Source: Candidatus Poribacteria bacterium (GTDB lineage Bacteria > Poribacteria > WGA-4E > JAJDTR01). Taken from it: 64,000 nucleotides of DNA. The stretch is taken from NCBI GenBank assembly GCA_028820655.1, contig JAPPIK010000056.1:337880-401879 (forward strand), read 5' to 3'. Under the pieces are notes generated by a model that saw only the letters and a list, made by a program, of their open reading frames with translations, searched no databases and had not been told where the DNA came from. Positions 45,595 to 54,876 of the stretch are shown piece after piece. A program made the position numbers and the translations under genes. How positions within the stretch are numbered: the first letter of the stretch is position 1; each line of letters opens with the position of its first letter.

Positions 45595-46554
45595 ATGGAT
45601 GCAAACCCAATGATGATTTTTGCCGGCAGCGGAAGCCGGCGTCTCACCCAGAAAATCTGTCGGTATCTCCAAGTATCGGCCGGGAAAAACGAGGTCATCC
45701 AATTTTCGGACGGCAACACGTTTGTCCGCGTGCTTGAGAACGTTCGAGGCCGACACGTCTATATCGTCCAATCCACGATATTCCCCACCAACGACAATTT
45801 TATGGAGTTGCTCTTCTGGATCGATGCCCTGAAGCGTGCAAGCGCCGAGTCAGTGACGGCAGTGATTCCGTATCTTAGCTACGCGAAGGGAGACAAAAAG
45901 GATGAACCGCGCGTCTCCATTCGAGCCCGGGTTTGCGCGGATGCGATTGAGGCGGCAGGCGCCGATCGAGTCGTTACGATGGATTTGCACGCGGCTCAGA
46001 TTCAGGGATTCTTTCGGATTCCGGTGGACAATCTCTATGCGCACCGCGTGCTGTGCCAAGAGATTGAGAAGATGAAATTGAGGGATATTGTTATCGTCGC
46101 ACCGGACACGGGATTTGCAAAGGATGCAAGGCGCTACGCGTCCTACCTCCGCACATCCGTCGCCATCGCGGATAAGCGCCGCCCGGAACACGATGAGAAG
46201 TCCGAGATTCTGGAGATAATCGGCGAAGTGAACGGCAAAACAGCGGTAATTGTCGACGATTTTACCATTTCCGGCGGGACATTGGTCAATGTCTCGACAG
46301 TGTTAATGGAACGGGGCGCAAGGGAGGTCTACGCTATGGTTTCTCATGGAGTGCTCGCCGAGGACGCGGCGCTGAAGATTGATGATAGCCCGATCACAAA
46401 ACTCCTTGCCACGGATACGGTGGAGAACTATCCGAATTCATTGCCGAAAAAGATTCAGTTTGTCTCTGTCGCCCCTCTGTTTGGGGAGGCTATCCGGCGC
46501 ATCCATAATCGCGAAAGCATAAGCGCCATGTTCCCGGACAGCGGCGATACCTAA
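45595..46554 (+). CDS. Ribose-phosphate pyrophosphokinase (PRPP synthetase), divergent
   Basis: Makes 5-phosphoribosyl 1-pyrophosphate from ribose 5-phosphate and ATP for nucleotide synthesis. It has IFAGSGSRRLTQKICRYLQV, FSDGNTFVRVLENVRGRHVY, QSTIFPTNDNFMELLFWIDALKRASA, VIPYLSYAKGDKKDEPRVSI, VVTMDLHAAQIQGFF and the PRPP loop VDDFTISGGTL. In the standard enzyme these are YFGYARQDRK.RPREPI.A and VDD(M/I).DTGGT; the Tyr/Arg-Gln-Asp loop reads KGDKK and the DT of DTGGT is IS. The substitutions place it in a divergent branch of the Prs family. The stop region overlaps the convergent DUF5069 gene by four bases. No strong Shine-Dalgarno was seen at ATG 45595; two Met codons lie at positions 6 and 7. 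Confidence 0.88.
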   Translation: MDANPMMIFAGSGSRRLTQKICRYLQVSAGKNEVIQFSDGNTFVRVLENVRGRHVYIVQSTIFPTNDNFMELLFWIDALKRASAESVTAVIPYLSYAKGDKKDEPRVSIRARVCADAIEAAGADRVVTMDLHAAQIQGFFRIPVDNLYAHRVLCQEIEKMKLRDIVIVAPDTGFAKDARRYASYLRTSVAIADKRRPEHDEKSEILEIIGEVNGKTAVIVDDFTISGGTLVNVSTVLMERGAREVYAMVSHGVLAEDAALKIDDSPITKLLATDTVENYPNSLPKKIQFVSVAPLFGEAIRRIHNRESISAMFPDSGDT

Positions 46555-47855
46555 GAGCGGGTTATCATACGCGTTCCAAACTCTTTTTCATCGGCGAAAA
46601 CCATGAGGTCGAAGAAGGTCTGAATATCGGTGCGGCGGGGATCGAGTTTGTTAATCAGCTTGGCGAAGAATGCGCGATGCCGTTCGGTCACCGGGCGTCG
46701 ATTTATCATTTCATCATTGAACGCAACTATGTCGTCCGATGTCTTCCGCGCGTTAGCCCGTACCCAGTCCGTGACATCGTTGTCGCCGCGTAGGTCTCCA
46801 ACGAGTTCAAGGAATTCTTGCGGCGTGACGCCGATAAACTGAAGCACCTGCCGATCATGCCCGGAATCCTCACCATACCAGTAATCCCCGATTGAGTCTG
46901 CCTTGAACGCCCTTGCTTTGTCGAGTGTTCGAGCCAAGCCCGCGATCCCCGCAATATCGGTACTATACGGGCTGCGGGGCGCATGCCTCCCGAGGTCAAC
47001 GATGCCGAAACCGCGTTCATCGTCAAGGTCCTGAAGTTCCGCCCATGTCGAAATGTCGGTACGACTCGGATCGATCTCGCGGATACGAGATTCGAGGTAG
47101 ACCCGCGCTTCCGCATCCTCCGCTCCCCGATTCGCCATAGCGCGATTGAAGTCATCAATTTCTTTTGGTTGGACGCGGCTCCGTTCCAACACCCATTCCC
47201 CCAATTCACAATCGTTGGGATTCTTGACTGCCGCTTCTTGGAAATCTTCTTCCGACACCTTTAGAAACTCCAATATTTTGCGGTCCTGTCCGGAATCCGC
47301 CCCGAATCGATATTCTCCGTTTTTTCCGGTTCGTACGGCTCGGGCTTTGTCCGCCATTCGCGCGACCCCGAAGATTCCGGCAACGTCTCTGGCGCGCGGG
47401 CTGCGAGGCGGTTTCTTCGTCAAATCTTTCTGCCAGAAATTGCCCCAATCGTCGAGTTCGATCGATTGCAGAATGGTCTTGATGTTCGTACTTCCGGGCG
47501 CGTATTTGGCAATGCGGTCTTTCAAACGCTGCTTGTATTCGTCTGTTTCGGGCAGCTGCTCCAATTCAGTCCGATTGAATTGGTCGATGGCTTCCTGCGC
47601 GACATTGCTCCTTTCTCCGATCCATTGGTTCAGTGACTCGTCATCGTGTTCGTCCACGGCTTCAGCGAATTCCTCTTCGGAGATGCCGAGAAAATCCAAG
47701 ACTTTGCGGTCCAATCCCGATTCTCCGCCGTAAAGAAATTCTCCTAGTGTTTCGTCGTTGTGTGCCCTAGCTTTGTCGACCATTCGCGCTGCCCCTACAA
47801 TGCCGGCGATTCCAAGATTCGAAGGTCGACGCGGCGGCTGGCGTGTCAAATCCAT
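46551..47855 (-). CDS. Protein with three tandem DUF5069 domains
   Basis: 434 residues of unknown function consisting of three consecutive copies of a domain of about 145 residues. Each copy starts 'DL....PR.P.....(G)I.G.AR..DKARA......G.Y.YG..SG.DR..L.F.G' and ends with an 'I.P...(D)I.T...L..LDD..G' signature: copy 1 about 1-138, copy 2 about 139-285, copy 3 about 286-434. This is the DUF5069 pattern, which is usually a single-domain protein of about 150 residues. The copies are well diverged from each other in sequence, so the duplication is old. No signal peptide or membrane segment. It is convergent with the PRPP synthetase gene and overlaps it by four bases. Confidence 0.85.
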   Translation of the reverse strand: MDLTRQPPRRPSNLGIAGIVGAARMVDKARAHNDETLGEFLYGGESGLDRKVLDFLGISEEEFAEAVDEHDDESLNQWIGERSNVAQEAIDQFNRTELEQLPETDEYKQRLKDRIAKYAPGSTNIKTILQSIELDDWGNFWQKDLTKKPPRSPRARDVAGIFGVARMADKARAVRTGKNGEYRFGADSGQDRKILEFLKVSEEDFQEAAVKNPNDCELGEWVLERSRVQPKEIDDFNRAMANRGAEDAEARVYLESRIREIDPSRTDISTWAELQDLDDERGFGIVDLGRHAPRSPYSTDIAGIAGLARTLDKARAFKADSIGDYWYGEDSGHDRQVLQFIGVTPQEFLELVGDLRGDNDVTDWVRANARKTSDDIVAFNDEMINRRPVTERHRAFFAKLINKLDPRRTDIQTFFDLMVFADEKEFGTRMITRS

Positions 47856-48297: not shown

Positions 48298-48759
48298 ATG
48301 AAGAATGCCGCCGGAAACGATTCCTCCAGAGTTGTAACCGTCAATCGAAAAGCGCGGCATGACTACCATCTGCACGACCGGTACGAAGCCGGAGTGGTGT
48401 TGCAGGGAACCGAAGTCAAGTCGATACGCGCGGGACGATTGAATCTGGCGGATAGTTATGCGAAACTCCGCGACGGCGAGTTCTTTTTGGTTGACGCTCA
48501 CATCGGTCCCTACGAACAGGGCAACCGTGAGAACCATGAGCCGAAACGTCAACGCAAGTTGCTGCTGAACCGCCGCGAGATTCGGAAGATTGAAAGCAAG
48601 ATCCGGTCGGCGGGCATGACGGTTGTGCCGACGAAAGCCTATTTCAATAACGGCAGGGTAAAGCTTGAGATTGCGATCGCGTCAGGTAAACGCGCTTACG
48701 ATAAGCGCGATTCCATTGAAAAGGAGGAGGCGCGGCGGGCAATTCGGTCTCATTTATAG
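48298..48759 (+). CDS. smpB: SsrA-binding protein SmpB
   Basis: Partner of tmRNA in trans-translation: binds its tRNA-like domain and brings it to stalled ribosomes. 153 residues. Motifs are NRKARHDYHLHDRYEAGVVLQGTEVKSIRAGRLNLADSYAKL, EFFLVDAHIGPYEQGN..NHEP.R.RKLLLNRREIRKI and VVPTKAYFNNGRVKLEIAIASGKRAYDKRDSI, and the C-terminal basic tail that enters the mRNA channel (EKEEARRAIRSHL). There is no Shine-Dalgarno, consistent with a leaderless message. The tmRNA gene lies 206 nt downstream on the same strand. Confidence 0.97.
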   Translation: MKNAAGNDSSRVVTVNRKARHDYHLHDRYEAGVVLQGTEVKSIRAGRLNLADSYAKLRDGEFFLVDAHIGPYEQGNRENHEPKRQRKLLLNRREIRKIESKIRSAGMTVVPTKAYFNNGRVKLEIAIASGKRAYDKRDSIEKEEARRAIRSHL

Positions 48760-48965: not shown

Positions 48966-49322
48966 GGGGGTGAAAAGGTTTCGACGTGAGTCAATGAGAT
49001 AAGAGTTGCATGCCGAGGTCTCCGCAGGCCTCGTTAAAAAGGCGGAAAAAACTTAACTGCTGACTACGAAGAGTTAGCTCTAGCTGCTTAAAGCAGCTAC
49101 GCTCGGCTAACTTGCGGCCCGTCGAGTTAGTCGGGCGCCAGACAACGGGCTCTGTGGCTTGTCTGTTCTCAAGGGTCAGGCTGCGAGAAAACACTTGAGA
49201 TAGCCTGAACGAATCTGGCATAAGGGAGTCGTTACGGTGAAGCGCCAAAACTTATGCTAAGCATGTAGTAGCTTTTATTGAACTGCTCTCGGACACGGGT
49301 TCGATTCCCGTCACCTCCATCA
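48966..49322 (+). ncRNA. ssrA: Transfer-messenger RNA
   Basis: One-piece tmRNA of about 357 nt that rescues stalled ribosomes. The 5' end GGGGGTGAAAAGGTTTCGAC is typical and its first seven bases pair with CACCTCC near the 3' end (one G-U pair). The T-arm is GGACACGGGTTCGATTCCCG. The tag reading frame starts at GCT 49059 and ends with TAA at 49089-49091: it encodes ADYEELALAA, giving AADYEELALAA when the charged alanine is counted, with the usual ALAA degradation signal. The 3' terminal CCA is not encoded exactly (A then TCA), so CCA would be added after processing. smpB lies just upstream. Confidence 0.97.
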
Positions 49323-49347
49323 GGTTTTTGAGTATATTTCTACCTCA

Positions 49348-49391
49348 AGGTGCAGTTGCCGATTGACACGGTTGGCGATTGCACCTTTTTT
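49348..49391 (+). terminator. Terminator downstream of tmRNA
   Basis: AGGTGCAGTTGCC pairs with GGCGATTGCACCT (one mismatch region, one G-U pair) around a 13-nt loop and runs into six T. Confidence 0.75.
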
Positions 49392-49521: not shown

Positions 49522-50193
49522 GTGCAAACAATTGACAGAGCAAAGTTAATAGTGAAAGCACAAGTCGGCGATTTGCTGACGAAGTTGGAGGACGGGCAGA
49601 AGACTCGACAACTGGCGCTTGAGGAGGTGCGCGACGATATCCGACGGATTAAGTCTCTCATCGTCGGCGCTATTGCCGATCTCAAACTGATTGAGCGCCA
49701 AATTGAAGAGTCCGACACCGAATCGGGGACGTGGGAAGAGAGGGCGACGTTTGCGCTGCAAAAATCCGAGGAGGATTTGGCGCGGCGCGCACTTGCGCGT
49801 AAGCACGAACTAACGCAAAGAGCGGAACGCTATCGCGAGCAGCTTAACGCACAGCGCGATACCATCGATACGCTCAAATCAAGTCTGAAATCCTTGGAAT
49901 CTAGATTAGGTGAAATGCGTTTCGATGCGGCGCGAATGGATGTACAAGAAACGTTGTCTCGTCAATCTTCGCTCGGAGCGACCCACACAAGCGGTCATGT
50001 GCTTGATAGTCGTGCATTTGACGCATATGATCGAATGGTTGATCAGGTGCGAGACTTGGAGGCACATGCCGAGGCGTTCGATGAATTGATGCAAGGCGAT
50101 AAACTTGAGCGGGAGTTCCATGCGTTGGAACGTAAGGCTGAAGTGGATAAGGATTTAGCGGCGTTAAAATGCAGAATCTCTACCGGCGATTAA
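49522..50193 (+). CDS. PspA/IM30 family protein, paralogue 1
   Basis: A coiled-coil membrane-remodelling protein of the ESCRT-III-like PspA/Vipp1 family. 223 residues from a GTG start at 49522 that has AAGGAGA upstream; the frame continues 16 codons further upstream without support. Helical throughout, with LIVKAQVGDLLTKLEDGQKTRQLALEEVRDDIRRIKSLI as the family's first core helix and a long heptad region (ATFALQKSEEDLARRALARKHELTQRAERYREQLNAQ). The amphipathic N-terminal helix that binds membranes ('MGIF.R') is replaced by MQTIDRAKL, unlike paralogue 2, so membrane binding may differ. It lies upstream of a nuclease-family gene and paralogue 2. Confidence 0.85.
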   Translation: MQTIDRAKLIVKAQVGDLLTKLEDGQKTRQLALEEVRDDIRRIKSLIVGAIADLKLIERQIEESDTESGTWEERATFALQKSEEDLARRALARKHELTQRAERYREQLNAQRDTIDTLKSSLKSLESRLGEMRFDAARMDVQETLSRQSSLGATHTSGHVLDSRAFDAYDRMVDQVRDLEAHAEAFDELMQGDKLEREFHALERKAEVDKDLAALKCRISTGD

Positions 50194-50256
50194 ATACCAG
50201 CCGCCGTGACGTCTCGATTTAGAGGTGCGAACGGTTGACATCAATCCAGATTTTTG

Positions 50257-50285
50257 TTGAAATTCCCACCCGGTCACGTTACAAT
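50257..50285 (+). promoter_or_regulatory. Candidate sigma-70 promoter inside the PspA cluster
   Basis: TTGAAA (50257-50262), 17-nt spacer, TACAAT (50280-50285). It would start a transcript with a leader of about 105 nt for the nuclease-family gene at 50397. An upstream TTGACA at 50234 is also present without a good -10. Confidence 0.55.
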
Positions 50286-50396
50286 TCAACGCAGTTTCGG
50301 GTTACAAGCAAGGTCGTCGCAAAGCCTTGCGTAAAAACTCGCCCGATTGCGACAAGGTCGGGTAAATTCTATCAGGGAATTACAAGGAGAGTAACC

Positions 50397-50885
50397 ATGG
50401 TTGAAGTCGACGTGGCATTCATCTCTTTTGACCAACATGTGGGTACACCAATTGTGGTGCTGAAGGATAAAGCAGCCGAAACCAAGCGAATGTTGCTCAT
50501 TTGGATCGGTCCGCCGGAAGCCGCCGCCATTCAGTCAATAATCAAGGGCGAAGATTCCGTTCGCCCGATGACTCACGATTTGATGAAGAGTCTCATTGAA
50601 AGTCTTCAAGGAAAACTCACTTCTGTCTGCGTGCACTCCGTGGAAGATGGAACCTATTTCGGGCAAGTTACACTTCAGGCGGGTGGACGCACGATTGATG
50701 TTGACGCCCGCCCGAGCGATGCCATCGCGCTTGCGCTGCGCTGTAAATCACCAATCTACGTCGCCGAGGAGGTTATCGAAGAGCATGGTCTCTCCGAGGA
50801 CGATCTGAAAGAGGCGCATCAGCAGCAGACGAAGAGCGTGTTGGAAAACTTGGATGATGAGACGCTAGGCGAATTTACGGTCTAA
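50397..50885 (+). CDS. Bifunctional nuclease family protein (DUF151)
   Basis: 162 residues from the ATG at 50397, which has AAGGAGAG upstream (the open frame extends to 50235 without support). It matches the bifunctional nuclease (BFN/DUF151) family: GTPIVVLKDKAAETKRMLLIWIGPPEAAAIQSIIKGED, RPMTHDLMKSLIESL, VEDGTYFGQVTLQAGGRTIDVDARPSDAIALALRCKSPIYVAEEVIEE. The 'RPSDA.ALA.R...PI.V...V' core is diagnostic. Plant members cut DNA and RNA; bacterial members are mostly untested. The acidic C-terminal tail is typical. It stands between two PspA genes, with paralogue 2 starting 26 nt downstream. Confidence 0.92.
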   Translation: MVEVDVAFISFDQHVGTPIVVLKDKAAETKRMLLIWIGPPEAAAIQSIIKGEDSVRPMTHDLMKSLIESLQGKLTSVCVHSVEDGTYFGQVTLQAGGRTIDVDARPSDAIALALRCKSPIYVAEEVIEEHGLSEDDLKEAHQQQTKSVLENLDDETLGEFTV

Positions 50886-50911
50886 CCACCAAACGTTGAG
50901 ACTAACCAGCC

Positions 50912-51571
50912 ATGCCAATCTTTGAAAAAATCAGTCGAATTCTCAAATCAAATATCAACGATCTACTGGATCGCGTCGAGGACCCGGAAAAGGTCTTGAA
51001 TCAGTTGCTTGAGGATATGCGCCATGAGTTCAAAGAGGCAAAGGTGCAGGTGGTTGCGGCGATTCGCGATGGGAATCGGCTCGAGGCTCAACACAAGGAG
51101 AATCTGGATAGCGCCGAGAGTTGGGAAAAGCGAGCTATCGTATTCATCGAAAACGGCGATGATGTTCGAGCGAAAGAGGCGCTGCGCCGCAAGAAAGCCT
51201 ATAGCGAATTGGCCGATAATTACGGTGAGCAACTTGAATCCCAGCGGGAAAGCGTTGCGGTTCTCAAAGATGGATTGGCGACGTTGCAGGAGAAGATTGA
51301 AGAGGCAGAGCATAAACGCGCCATTCTGATTGCCCGCGCCAAGCGGGCGGAAGCCGAAAGGAATATTCAGGAAACGGTAGCCGGCATCGCGGAATCAAGT
51401 GCAGCCGATGCGTTTGATCGAATTCAAGATCGCGTGGCTGAAACCGAGGCGCATGCCGAAGCCTATCGCGAACTTCGAGATCTCAATGCGGAAGACTCAC
51501 TTTTTGAACCTAATCCTCACGATGAGATTGAGGATGAACTCGCCAAACTTAAAGAAAAACTGAAAAAGTAA
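50912..51571 (+). CDS. PspA/IM30 family protein, paralogue 2
   Basis: 219 residues. The N-terminus MPIFEKISRILKSNINDLLDRVEDPEKVLNQLLEDMRHEFKEAKVQV is the classic PspA/Vipp1 start, with the amphipathic membrane-binding helix 0 and the 'EDP.K.L.Q...DM' motif. A long coiled coil follows (about 30-150) and a short acidic/basic tail (HDEIEDELAKLKEKLKK). It probably polymerises on stressed membranes to keep the proton motive force. It directly follows the nuclease-family gene (26 nt) and precedes a small membrane protein gene. Confidence 0.95.
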   Translation: MPIFEKISRILKSNINDLLDRVEDPEKVLNQLLEDMRHEFKEAKVQVVAAIRDGNRLEAQHKENLDSAESWEKRAIVFIENGDDVRAKEALRRKKAYSELADNYGEQLESQRESVAVLKDGLATLQEKIEEAEHKRAILIARAKRAEAERNIQETVAGIAESSAADAFDRIQDRVAETEAHAEAYRELRDLNAEDSLFEPNPHDEIEDELAKLKEKLKK

Positions 51572-51622
51572 ACCGGTGCTTGGGAATTTCGATGTCACCC
51601 GGGCTTGGTATTGGATTCGATA

Positions 51623-51796
51623 ATGCCGTTATTAAGGAAATTCATCATCCTGGCGTTAATCGTCGTACTTACACTAATTGCGGTAATGTTGATTTTGCCA
51701 ATCGCTGTTTGGGTATTTCAATTTGTCGCTACTGTGCTCGCGCTCCTTGCGATTGGACTCGCGCTCGTGTATCTCATTCGAAAACTCCGCACCTGA
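51623..51796 (+). CDS. Small two-helix membrane protein
   Basis: 57 residues from the ATG at 51623 (a TTG at 51605 is possible). Almost wholly hydrophobic: two membrane helices (FIILALIVVLTLIAVMLIL and FVATVLALLAIGLALVYLI) with basic ends (MPLLRK and RKLRT). It lies 51 nt after PspA paralogue 2. Small membrane partners such as PspB/PspC/LiaI often accompany PspA, which makes this a plausible membrane docking partner, although no homology is recognised and no Shine-Dalgarno is clear. Confidence 0.6.
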   Translation: MPLLRKFIILALIVVLTLIAVMLILPIAVWVFQFVATVLALLAIGLALVYLIRKLRT

Positions 51797-51969
51797 ATCA
51801 CCATCTGGCACTGCAGCGGGTGCCGGTTGATGATTAACTTGAAACTAAATCTGATTTCCCTAGCAAGCAATCGAAAGAAAAGCGTGCCGAGAGATTTGCA
51901 TCTGCACTTGGTGAACGGAAAAACCCGAATGTAACTCCCAACCCTCATCTGGCAGCGATTACTTACTTG

Positions 51970-54876
51970 ATGAATGCCGCCCAGCTGCTAATTCTTCGCC
52001 TTCTGTTCCTATCTACAGTTTTCCTTCCACACACTCACGCCCAACATCTAACCCAATGGAATTTGCCCGACGGCGCCACGACGCGGCTCGGCAAGGGTTG
52101 GATATCTGAAATTGCATTTTCACCCGATGGAACGCAGCTAGCGGTTGCGAGTAGTATCGGTATTTGGATTTACGATACACGTAATGGTGATGAGACTTCT
52201 CTATTGACAGGTCACACGAGAGTTGTCACCTCCGTGGCATTCTCTCCGGATGGCTTAACGCTCGCCAGTGGGAGTTGGGACAATACGATTCGCTTGTGGG
52301 ATGCCGCTACCGGGAATCACAAGAAGACTCTTGAAGGGCATCAGGCTGTTGTCACTTCCGTAGCATTCTCTCCCGATGGAACTATGCTTGCCAGTGGGAG
52401 TGGAGACGGCGCCATCCGTCTATGGGATGCGCTTGCCGGGAAAGCCGCGGGACTCCTTGAAGGGCATGATGCTCCGGTGCGTTCCGTTGCGTTGTCCTCG
52501 GATGGAATTACGCTGGCAAGCGGGAGCGTCGACAACACCATTCGCCTCTGGGATATACGCACGGGGAATCTGCAACATACCCTTGCGGGGCACACATCTC
52601 CGGTGCGCACCGTCGCATTTTCTCCCGATGGAGTCACGCTCGCCAGTGGAAGTGGTGACCACACAATTCGCTTATGGAATGTGCGTACGGGAAAACATAA
52701 CCAGACCCTAAGCGCCCATACGGCTCCTGTCAAGTCGATCGCGTTTTCTCCCGATGGGCTCACACTAGCTAGTGGGGCAAGTGTGCACGATGTAATCCTG
52801 TTGTGGGATGTTCGCACTGCAGAACGCAGACAAACTCTTAAAGGATATATCGGTGCCATCGAATCACTGGCGTTTTCTCCCGATGGCGTCATGCTCGCAA
52901 GCGGCAACGAGGACAACACGATTCGGTTTTGGAATGTTCTCACCGGGGAACTCAGCCGGAGCTTTGGAGAACACACTGGTCGAATTACTAGCATAGTATT
53001 CTCCCCCGATGGGAGTACGCTTGCCAGCGGCAGTTGGGACGCTGTTCGACTGTGGAACACGGGCAGTAGAGGAAACAGGTTGACCCTAAAGGGGCACACC
53101 TGGCCAATTGAATCCGTTGCCTATTCTCCGGATGGGCGTACACTTGCAAGTGCGAGCGGTGACCGCACGATTCGCTTATGGGACACACACACTGGTGAAC
53201 ACCGGTTGACCTTGCACGAGCCTTGGTCGATCGCCACTTCCGTAGCGTTCTCTCCCGCCGGAGACACCATGGCTCGCGGAGGCAAAGGCGGTATGATTCG
53301 ACTGTGCGATACACGTACCGGCAAACACCGGTTGACACTTGAAGGACATTCCGGCCTTATTCGCGCCATAGCATTCTCGCCCGATGGCGCCACACTTGCC
53401 AGTGGGAGTGACGACGACACAATTCGCTTGTGGGATTGTCGCACCGGGGATGGTCTTCAGGTCTTGGAAGGGCATACAGAGGAGGTCACTGCCGTTGCGT
53501 TCTCACCGGACGGGGACACGCTTGCCAGCGGAAGCGATGACAACACGATTCGGCTTTGGTCCGTGCGTTCCGGTAAACATCGGCTATCCCTAATCGGACA
53601 CACGGCGCCAATTCGCTCGCTCGTGTTCTCCCGCGACGGTTTGACACTTGCCAGCGGCGGTGGGTACGGCAAGTTTCAACTGTTGAATATTAGCGCCGGG
53701 AACAGCCGCCACGCCACTGATGAATCTGCGCCCCCACCCCTTGCCATTCTCGATCGCAATGAATCCACCCTTTCAAGTGACAATGGTATAGACCATTCGA
53801 TTCGATTGTGGGATGTACTCACTGGAAAACCTAAGCACACCCTCGGAGGGCACCCGAGGGTGGTTTCTTGCCTAGCGTTTTCTCCTGATGGCTCGACGCT
53901 TTTGAGCGGCGGCGAAGACAAGATGATTCGACTGTGGGCTGTTCGCACCGGTGAGCAGAGAAACTCCTTTGAGGGACATGCTGAAGGCACAATGGCCGCC
54001 GCGTTTTCACCCGACGGGGAATCGATTGCCAGTGGAAATTGGAACACGATTCGACTGTGGCATGCCCGAACGGGGGCACGAATGCACACCCTTGAAACGC
54101 ATTTTCATAAGGTAAGTTCAATAGCTTTTCTGCCTGATGGCAGAATACTAGCCGGCGGGAGTTCAGACAACATCCTGTTGTGGGATGCGCGCACCGGAAA
54201 ACACGAGTCAATCCGCCAAAGTTATCGGGCACAAGTCACCTCCGTAGCGTTTTCCCCGGATGGGAAGACTCTTGCGAGCGGGAATAGAAATGGAATGATC
54301 CGGTTGTGGGACGCTCTTACCGGGAGGCACAGGTTGACGCTAGAAGGGCACACGGACAAAATCAACGCCGTGACGTTCTCTCCCTGTGGAGATGCGCTTG
54401 CAAGTGGGAGCGGAATGTCATGGGGTGCGGATAGCACAATTCGCATATGGGATGTGCACACCGGTAAACACAGACTGACCCTTGAAGGACACACCGGTGA
54501 TGTTAATTGTGTCTATTTCTCTCCCGACGGAAACACGCTAGTCAGTGCGAGCGGCACCCCTACCCGCAAGGAACAGGATAACACGATTCGGTTGTGGAAT
54601 GCGCACACCGGGGAACACTTGCTTACGTTGGCTGGACACACTAGCGAGGTCTATTCCGCGGTTTTTTCCCCCGATGGATCCATGATTGCGAGCGGATGCG
54701 CCGATAGCACCGTGCGCCTGTGGAACGCTCGAGATGGCAGACACCTTCTCACCTTGATGGGACACACCATGAGAGTCCGGTCCGTAGCGTTTTCACCCGA
54801 CGGACTGGCGCTTGCCAGCGGAAGCGGGGATGGAACAATTCTATTCTGGGACTTGGCGAGCGCCAATCATAATTGA
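51970..54876 (+). CDS. Exported WD40-repeat beta-propeller protein
   Basis: 968 residues. A signal peptide (LLILRLLFLSTVFLPHTHA, about 6-25) is followed by about 22 WD40 blades filling the rest of the protein. The consensus blade is 'V.SVAFSPDG.TLASGS.D.TIRLWD..TG.H..TLEGHT', about 42 residues. Two or three blades are degraded: one without GH (LHEPWSI, near blade 9) and one where a blade is disrupted by DESAPPPLAILDRNESTLS before DHSIRLWD. Blades 18 and 19 have insertions (GMSWGADS and GTPTRKEQD). The number of about 21-22 fits three seven-blade propellers. It is probably a periplasmic or surface scaffold. The DNA is a tandem array of period about 126 nt and is open to recombination. ATG 51970 is preferred to TTG 51967. 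Confidence 0.93.
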   Translation: MNAAQLLILRLLFLSTVFLPHTHAQHLTQWNLPDGATTRLGKGWISEIAFSPDGTQLAVASSIGIWIYDTRNGDETSLLTGHTRVVTSVAFSPDGLTLASGSWDNTIRLWDAATGNHKKTLEGHQAVVTSVAFSPDGTMLASGSGDGAIRLWDALAGKAAGLLEGHDAPVRSVALSSDGITLASGSVDNTIRLWDIRTGNLQHTLAGHTSPVRTVAFSPDGVTLASGSGDHTIRLWNVRTGKHNQTLSAHTAPVKSIAFSPDGLTLASGASVHDVILLWDVRTAERRQTLKGYIGAIESLAFSPDGVMLASGNEDNTIRFWNVLTGELSRSFGEHTGRITSIVFSPDGSTLASGSWDAVRLWNTGSRGNRLTLKGHTWPIESVAYSPDGRTLASASGDRTIRLWDTHTGEHRLTLHEPWSIATSVAFSPAGDTMARGGKGGMIRLCDTRTGKHRLTLEGHSGLIRAIAFSPDGATLASGSDDDTIRLWDCRTGDGLQVLEGHTEEVTAVAFSPDGDTLASGSDDNTIRLWSVRSGKHRLSLIGHTAPIRSLVFSRDGLTLASGGGYGKFQLLNISAGNSRHATDESAPPPLAILDRNESTLSSDNGIDHSIRLWDVLTGKPKHTLGGHPRVVSCLAFSPDGSTLLSGGEDKMIRLWAVRTGEQRNSFEGHAEGTMAAAFSPDGESIASGNWNTIRLWHARTGARMHTLETHFHKVSSIAFLPDGRILAGGSSDNILLWDARTGKHESIRQSYRAQVTSVAFSPDGKTLASGNRNGMIRLWDALTGRHRLTLEGHTDKINAVTFSPCGDALASGSGMSWGADSTIRIWDVHTGKHRLTLEGHTGDVNCVYFSPDGNTLVSASGTPTRKEQDNTIRLWNAHTGEHLLTLAGHTSEVYSAVFSPDGSMIASGCADSTVRLWNARDGRHLLTLMGHTMRVRSVAFSPDGLALASGSGDGTILFWDLASANHN

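Follow-up and report, generated by a model that had tools for sequence, protein, structure and literature searches.

In a 64,000-nucleotide (nt) stretch of a Candidatus Poribacteria genome (contig JAPPIK010000056.1; hereafter the window), a protein of the BFN (bifunctional nuclease)/DUF151 family was encoded between two PspA proteins, designated PspA1 and PspA2, and was followed by a gene for a small membrane protein (SMP). Across Poribacteria, BFN is recurrently associated with PspA and with flotillin-type membrane genes. The window cassette is probably a reduced envelope-maintenance locus of the phage shock protein (PSP)/flotillin type, with BFN as a soluble partner; any function beyond membrane maintenance is inferred. 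The cassette and its upstream neighbours were as follows.

48298–48759, + strand: smpB, 153 amino acids (aa), neighbour upstream of the cassette (Pfam SmpB, 191.6 bits)
48966–49319, + strand: ssrA, encoding transfer-messenger RNA (tmRNA) with the tag ADYEELALAA (ARAGORN; Rfam RF00023, 200.5 bits)
49347–49387, + strand: terminator-like hairpin between ssrA and PspA1, 19-bp stem followed by a T run (z -5.68 versus dinucleotide shuffles)
49522–50193, + strand: PspA1, 223 aa, GTG start behind AAGGAG, weakly amphipathic alpha0 (Pfam PspA_IM30, 102.1 bits)
50257–50285, + strand: candidate promoter of BFN-PspA2-SMP, TTGAAA-17-TACAAT (promoter-like site scan)
50397–50885, + strand: BFN/DUF151 protein, 162 aa, model matching TM0160 (Pfam BFN_dom, 127.3 bits)
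50912–51571, + strand: PspA2, 219 aa, strongly amphipathic alpha0 (Pfam PspA_IM30, 151.1 bits)
51623–51796, + strand: SMP, 57 aa, hydrophobic hairpin with a basic C-terminus (RKLRT), in no curated family

The first-pass annotation, made from the sequence alone, had described two PspA genes bracketing BFN and followed by a 57-aa two-helix membrane protein, and this composition was confirmed by the Pfam scores listed above, the cut-offs being 33.9 bits for PspA_IM30 (PF04012) and 27 bits for BFN_dom (PF02577). Coverage of the PspA profile was near full length (positions 4–216 in PspA1 and 2–217 in PspA2), and the classical PspA equivalogue TIGR02977 (cut-off 242.95 bits) was not reached by either protein (105.2 and 114.4 bits). 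Intact counterparts of all four genes were present in identical order in a sister species of the same genus (G001). Nonsynonymous and synonymous substitution rates (dN/dS) between the window's genome (G000) and G001 were 0.098/1.05 for PspA1, 0.080/0.52 for BFN, 0.052/0.81 for PspA2 and 0.23/0.80 for SMP, patterns that point to purifying selection on each of the four genes, with SMP being the least conserved (61% identity). In a 13-member alignment of SMP, the window member had no Pfam match, and the other members gave weak scattered Pfam matches (best E 0.0013) with no curated family matched.

A first search covered 58 genomes including the window's own, of which 57 contained BFN, and 57 BFN neighbourhoods were examined. 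The phylum search covered 84 genomes, 77 with a BFN match; 85 BFN loci were tabulated and then recounted per genome, any BFN locus of a genome being accepted. The 85 loci include eight second BFN copies without the neighbours described here (L062, L231, L236 and L238–L242), while one 60-residue BFN fragment in G019 (C776) lay outside them. Many loci end at contig ends, so that counts of absence are upper bounds. A fuller locus was found in relatives, with the order smpB-ssrA-PspA1-bPH (bPH_3)-YqiJ/NfeD-flotillin-BFN-PspA2-SMP. PspA2 was located directly 3' of BFN (within 152 nt, same strand) in 16 of the 77 BFN-bearing genomes, representing six of nine families, namely the window's family f1 (2/2), f4 (8/9), f7 (3/5), f8 (1/1), f9 (1/1) and f10 (1/1); it was not found after BFN in the largest family, f2 (0/54), or in f3 (0/3) and f5 (0/1). 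The association of BFN with PspA thus extends well beyond the window. A PspA upstream of BFN was carried by two genomes of f1, eight of f4 and one each of f8, f9 and f10, and SMP was present at the locus in two genomes of f1, 9/9 of f4, 2/3 of f3 and one of f10. In f2, PspA was absent from the BFN locus, and BFN mostly retained bPH (53/54), YqiJ/NfeD (50/54) and flotillin (44/54, 41 of them near-full length) upstream. Flotillin was found at the locus in six of the nine f4 genomes, one being a 102-aa fragment, and an SmpB match lay upstream in 48 of the 85 tabulated loci, many of which were truncated by contig ends.

The first-pass annotation had made its reading depend on conservation of the gene order together with SMP and PspA1, and the outcome differed among families. 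All were kept in f1 (2/2), f4 (8/9) and f10 (1/1); they were not kept in f2 (54 genomes), f3 (three genomes, SMP in two) and f5 (one genome), and f7 kept only the BFN-PspA2 pair (3/5). Both PspAs were carried in f8 and f9, where SMP was not seen, the f9 contig ending soon after PspA2 and thus too early. In L070, L076, L085, L247 and L251, the flotillin or YqiJ gene at the locus looks fragmentary or split, as if the middle part of the locus decays repeatedly while BFN stays.

With a bPH query, no match was obtained in the whole genomes of G000 and G001 and matches were obtained in 5/5 control relatives; a YqiJ/NfeD query likewise gave none in these two genomes and matches in 4/4 control relatives. 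In G000, the flotillin query detected a distant SPFH protein at another place in the genome (24% identity) and nothing else, and the Band_7 matches, five each in G000 and G001, included none on the BFN contig. By gene content, the window cassette therefore appears as a shortened, family-specific form of the longer locus. Since the f8, f9 and f10 loci also contain bPH, and since both halves of the PspA tree place f1 beside genus g9 of f4, loss of bPH, YqiJ/NfeD and flotillin in f1 is the simplest reading. Given such a loss, PspA1 would have become a direct neighbour of BFN secondarily, and BFN-PspA2 would be the older tight pair. The four genes were thus not upheld as a native unit, as the first-pass annotation had taken them to be, because relatives place bPH, YqiJ/NfeD and flotillin between PspA1 and BFN. 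Judged from its genes, the window locus is apparently derived from a locus of the PspA-flotillin-YqiJ type and is no longer one itself, flotillin and YqiJ/NfeD both being absent.

The two PspAs fell into different parts of an unrooted tree built from 72 PspA domains, comprising 14 from the upstream side of BFN, 16 from the downstream side and 42 from elsewhere in the genomes. Thirteen of the 14 upstream-side sequences, from f1, f4, f8, f9 and f10, formed a well-supported clade (100/99), and the one exception, the PspA in the middle of the f10 locus, was placed just outside it. The 16 downstream-side sequences lay across a branch supported at 96/75, too low to be starred by the tool; eleven of them (f1, f4 and f8) formed a starred clade (100/97), and those of f9 and f10 and the three long-branched ones of f7 were less securely placed. 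The safe statement from this tree is that PspA1 represents an old clade and that the PspA2-side sequences are not PspA1s.

The two types also differ at the N-terminus. PspA1 had been described as lacking the membrane-binding N-terminal helix, which did not hold: the segment is present, with an alignment to PspA2 that begins at the first residues and one to the Pfam profile that begins at position 4, it is helical in the AlphaFold model, and only its hydrophobic moment differs. The model of PspA1 (predicted local distance difference test 81.6, predicted template modelling score 0.49) had helices at residues 2–80, 84–151 and 163–220 and its best structural match was VIPP1 (E 4.3e-8), so that a PspA/Vipp1-type (ESCRT-III-like) fold is supported by a model for PspA1 and by sequence for PspA2. 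In the window, the hydrophobic moment of alpha0 was 0.30 for PspA1, a value reached by about one-third of shuffles, and 0.59 for PspA2, reached by about 1%. Measured over the first 18 residues, for which the two sides can be aligned gap-free, the moment ranged from 0.30 to 0.41 in 13 upstream-side and from 0.54 to 0.63 in 13 downstream-side sequences from five families, without overlap; four sequences were dropped as too short, three being the downstream ones of f7. The Mann-Whitney p value of this contrast (1.4e-5) overstates the evidence, as several sequences are identical or near-identical. PspA1 is thus probably a poor membrane anchor in spite of its alpha0 segment, and the earlier intuition on its N-terminus survives in altered form, as a weak rather than a missing alpha0.

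Two further arrangements of PspA were observed. In f2, there are often at least two neighbouring frames of about 345–460 aa in which the PspA match begins only after alpha0 (L111:319-2769, similar in L105–L121), and the two that were scanned, both from L111, carried an RDD membrane domain joined to the PspA domain, as if in these predicted fusions the membrane domain replaces the amphipathic helix. The term RDD does not occur in the main text of PMC11237479, and among the papers searched none joined RDD, PspA and Vipp1. The window's genome encodes a third PspA (L258:9512-15441), after which come a CesT/Tir-like protein and, at a greater distance, two SPFH proteins.

The window BFN was the only BFN_dom match in G000. 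Its structural model matched TM0160 (1sj5) with E 5.5e-14, and all four matches at E ≤0.001 were DUF151 structures; weaker matches, some of them to dsRNA-binding proteins, had TM-scores below 0.3. The residues E41, R56, T59-H60-D61, D103, R105 and S107-D108 were invariant in 14 Poribacteria BFNs and were also present in TM0160. These shared polar residues, together with a PIN_2 match over residues 77–144 that stayed below threshold (20 bits, cut-off 22.4), are in keeping with BFN as an active DNase or RNase whose activity a PspA scaffold would gate or position at the membrane; the first-pass annotation had supposed that a co-assembly of the paralogues could place a nucleic-acid-active protein there. 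Degradation of DNA and RNA in vitro has been reported for plant BBD proteins, which contain this domain (PMC7249048), although the activity described there is non-specific and does not strictly need a metal. As the confident structural matches are confined to DUF151 and a limited literature search turned up no activity for a bacterial BFN, a membrane-gated nuclease seems quite unlikely here.

The C-terminal tail of BFN (window 50841–50882) is conserved across the order and was predicted with low confidence. It was considered as a possible docking motif; a PspA-specific role was dropped upon finding a similar tail in many BFNs of other phyla. Some BFN copies of other families had, by eye, a twin-arginine-like signal at the N-terminus (L235, L236, L238 and L239) or a lipoprotein-like signal (L231:4153-4746), which suggests that these copies may be exported. 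In genus g2 of f2, second BFN copies were located directly before the main BFN (L048, L049, L052, L053 and L088), some being short or having stops inside the match.

The cassette lies directly after smpB-ssrA, and the first-pass annotation had seen in this position a link between ribosome rescue and membrane stress. The position stood, but a terminator-like hairpin intervenes: the 76-nt stretch that holds it folds at -29.1 kcal/mol (z -5.7), and a similar hairpin follows the tmRNA in G001. An ssrA-PspA1 operon was therefore rejected, for the window's genus only, where the ribosome-rescue link looks positional. Of 11 loci scanned, ten had the tmRNA flanked by smpB on one side and by PspA1 or bPH on the other; in L228, none was found. 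No comparable hairpin followed the tmRNA in nine loci of other genera (seven with none, two with weak ones), which weakens a general claim that ssrA and PspA1 are transcribed separately and makes read-through possible there. Four promoter-like sites were found versus 3.4 expected by chance, which makes the candidate promoter weak by itself, and neither the promoter nor the terminator scan gave more sites than shuffled sequences; the spacer before BFN, which holds the candidate promoter, aligns well with that of G001.

The same neighbourhood bears on a role of BFN in Clp-type proteolysis, as adaptor or regulator, a role that would link membrane stress to protein quality control. The locus adjoins smpB-ssrA, and products tagged by this system go to proteases. 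In plants, a CLPC1 trap enriched UVR-DUF151 proteins (PMC8889267); those proteins carry a UVR domain, however, and Pfam finds none in the window BFN. With the hairpin separating ssrA from PspA1 in the window as well, such a role is unlikely. The plant nuclease assays and the CLPC1 trap are leads rather than tests for the window BFN.

Several observations weigh against a functional partnership of BFN and PspA. BFN occurs without an adjacent PspA in f2 (54/77 genomes), f3 (three), f5 (one), one genome of f4 and two of f7, so the pairing is dispensable, and in f7 the PspA is divergent (52–65 bits) and none of the other locus genes was found. In the tree, the PspA2 side is not starred and has long branches, and the PspA1 side also takes in the 42 PspAs encoded elsewhere in the genomes. 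The 203-nt spacer between PspA1 and BFN suggests that the cassette may form two transcription units, and the role of SMP as an anchor would follow from position and hydrophobicity, with the gap after PspA2 growing from 51 nt in the window to about 236 nt in G001. Finally, an outside-phylum control used the best 80 named BFN loci of a longer list, which are biased to query-like BFNs; 78 were not from Poribacteria, 70 of these having at least 1 kb and 43 at least 5 kb on both sides. Near BFN in these 78 loci, PspA, flotillin, YqiJ/NfeD, bPH, SMP and SmpB were detected in none, using our own Poribacteria profiles at E ≤1e-4, with which distant forms could be missed. Thus the core function of BFN is not tied to PspA. 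A search of 36 of these outside-phylum genomes with the curated PspA model found PspA somewhere in 24.

This control, along with the near-universal presence of BFN in the first search and the lack of PspA beside BFN in f2 and f3, would suit a stationary housekeeping BFN around which membrane genes come and go, the PspAs being neighbours rather than partners. Against that account, the BFN-PspA2 pair is kept in three f7 genomes without an SmpB match in the DNA examined (about 0.5 kb upstream in one of them) and in f9 and f10 without SmpB within about 4 and 1.5 kb upstream, respectively, and where PspA is missing, BFN mostly retains the membrane-microdomain genes. A mere housekeeping neighbour is accordingly a possible, if rather doubtful, explanation, and a reduced PSP/flotillin-type locus with BFN as its soluble partner is preferred.

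In such a locus, PspA2 with its alpha0, anchored by SMP, would form a membrane-bound ESCRT-III-like scaffold, while PspA1 would act as a membrane-shy co-polymer or modulator of PspA2; in relatives, bPH and flotillin may serve to recruit it. BFN, made with PspA2, would be a regulator, adaptor or stress effector and not a structural part; candidates for its chemistry include a nuclease, a nucleotide-binding switch and a Clp-type adaptor. A bolder and rather improbable version supposes a two-paralogue ESCRT-III-like system, ancestral to Poribacteria, in which a co-polymer of membrane-binding PspA2 and membrane-shy PspA1 would hold or release BFN, and membrane damage would switch the activity of BFN towards nucleic acids, nucleotides or Clp substrates. 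If true, a bacterial DUF151 protein would thereby gain a physiological context. Eukaryotic ESCRT-III subunits divide labour, and the weak/strong alpha0 split of co-located PspAs offers a natural test of such division in bacterial ESCRT-III-like proteins. The DUF151/BFN family spans bacteria, archaea and plants, and its exact molecular function is described as still unknown (PMC7249048); its conserved association with PspA and flotillin within a single phylum provides a concrete functional hypothesis. Around BFN as the fixed partner, the locus has gained or lost PspA and flotillin modules.

Two other genes near the cassette were recorded. Directly 3' of it, a 969-aa protein consisting mostly of WD40 repeats is encoded at window 51967–54876, and no such frame is present there in G001. 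At 46551–47855 on the - strand, a 434-aa protein with three DUF5069 matches adjoins a ribose-phosphate pyrophosphokinase gene, and G001 has frames of the same length with similar starts in the same order.

Operons combining CesT/Tir, PspA, band-7/flotillin and YqiJ/YuaF are known (Ravi et al. 2024, PMC11237479), and NfeD and FloT have been named as PspA neighbours (PMC9239133). A link between BFN and PspA was not found in print by title and full-text searches or in the main texts of these two PSP surveys, supplements and most subscription papers being outside this scope; a search of the two main texts for the terms found no mention of DUF151 or nuclease, and PH domains, SmpB and tmRNA are not mentioned in that of PMC11237479. 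Like the operons of PMC11237479, the ancestral Poribacteria locus brings together PspA, an SPFH protein with a flotillin domain and a membrane protein of the YqiJ type, and the separate PspA3-CesT-like-SPFH-SPFH stretch of the window's genome is of that general kind. The ancestral locus differs from the operons described there in having two PspA types, bPH, BFN and SMP and no identified CesT, and the flotillin part is gone from the window locus. In the pspA-ydjGHI operon of Bacillus subtilis, PspA is brought to the membrane by an SPFH protein and membrane proteins (PMC8581546), a similar set of partners, whereas a single PspA and no BFN are described for that operon. The PspA/Vipp1 dyads of cyanobacteria (PMC11237479) are likewise neighbouring paralogues of two distinct types; these are described as adjacent and occasionally fused, whereas the Poribacteria pair has BFN between its members, which differ in the strength of alpha0. 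The window BFN shares its fold and the invariant polar residues with TM0160 (1vjl, 1sj5) and, by name, its domain with plant BBD1/BBD2; it is a single-domain protein with no UVR match and is set apart by its place in a PspA/flotillin locus. PspA-flotillin-YqiJ operons are thus already known, and the combination of BFN with two PspAs is a variant on that kind.

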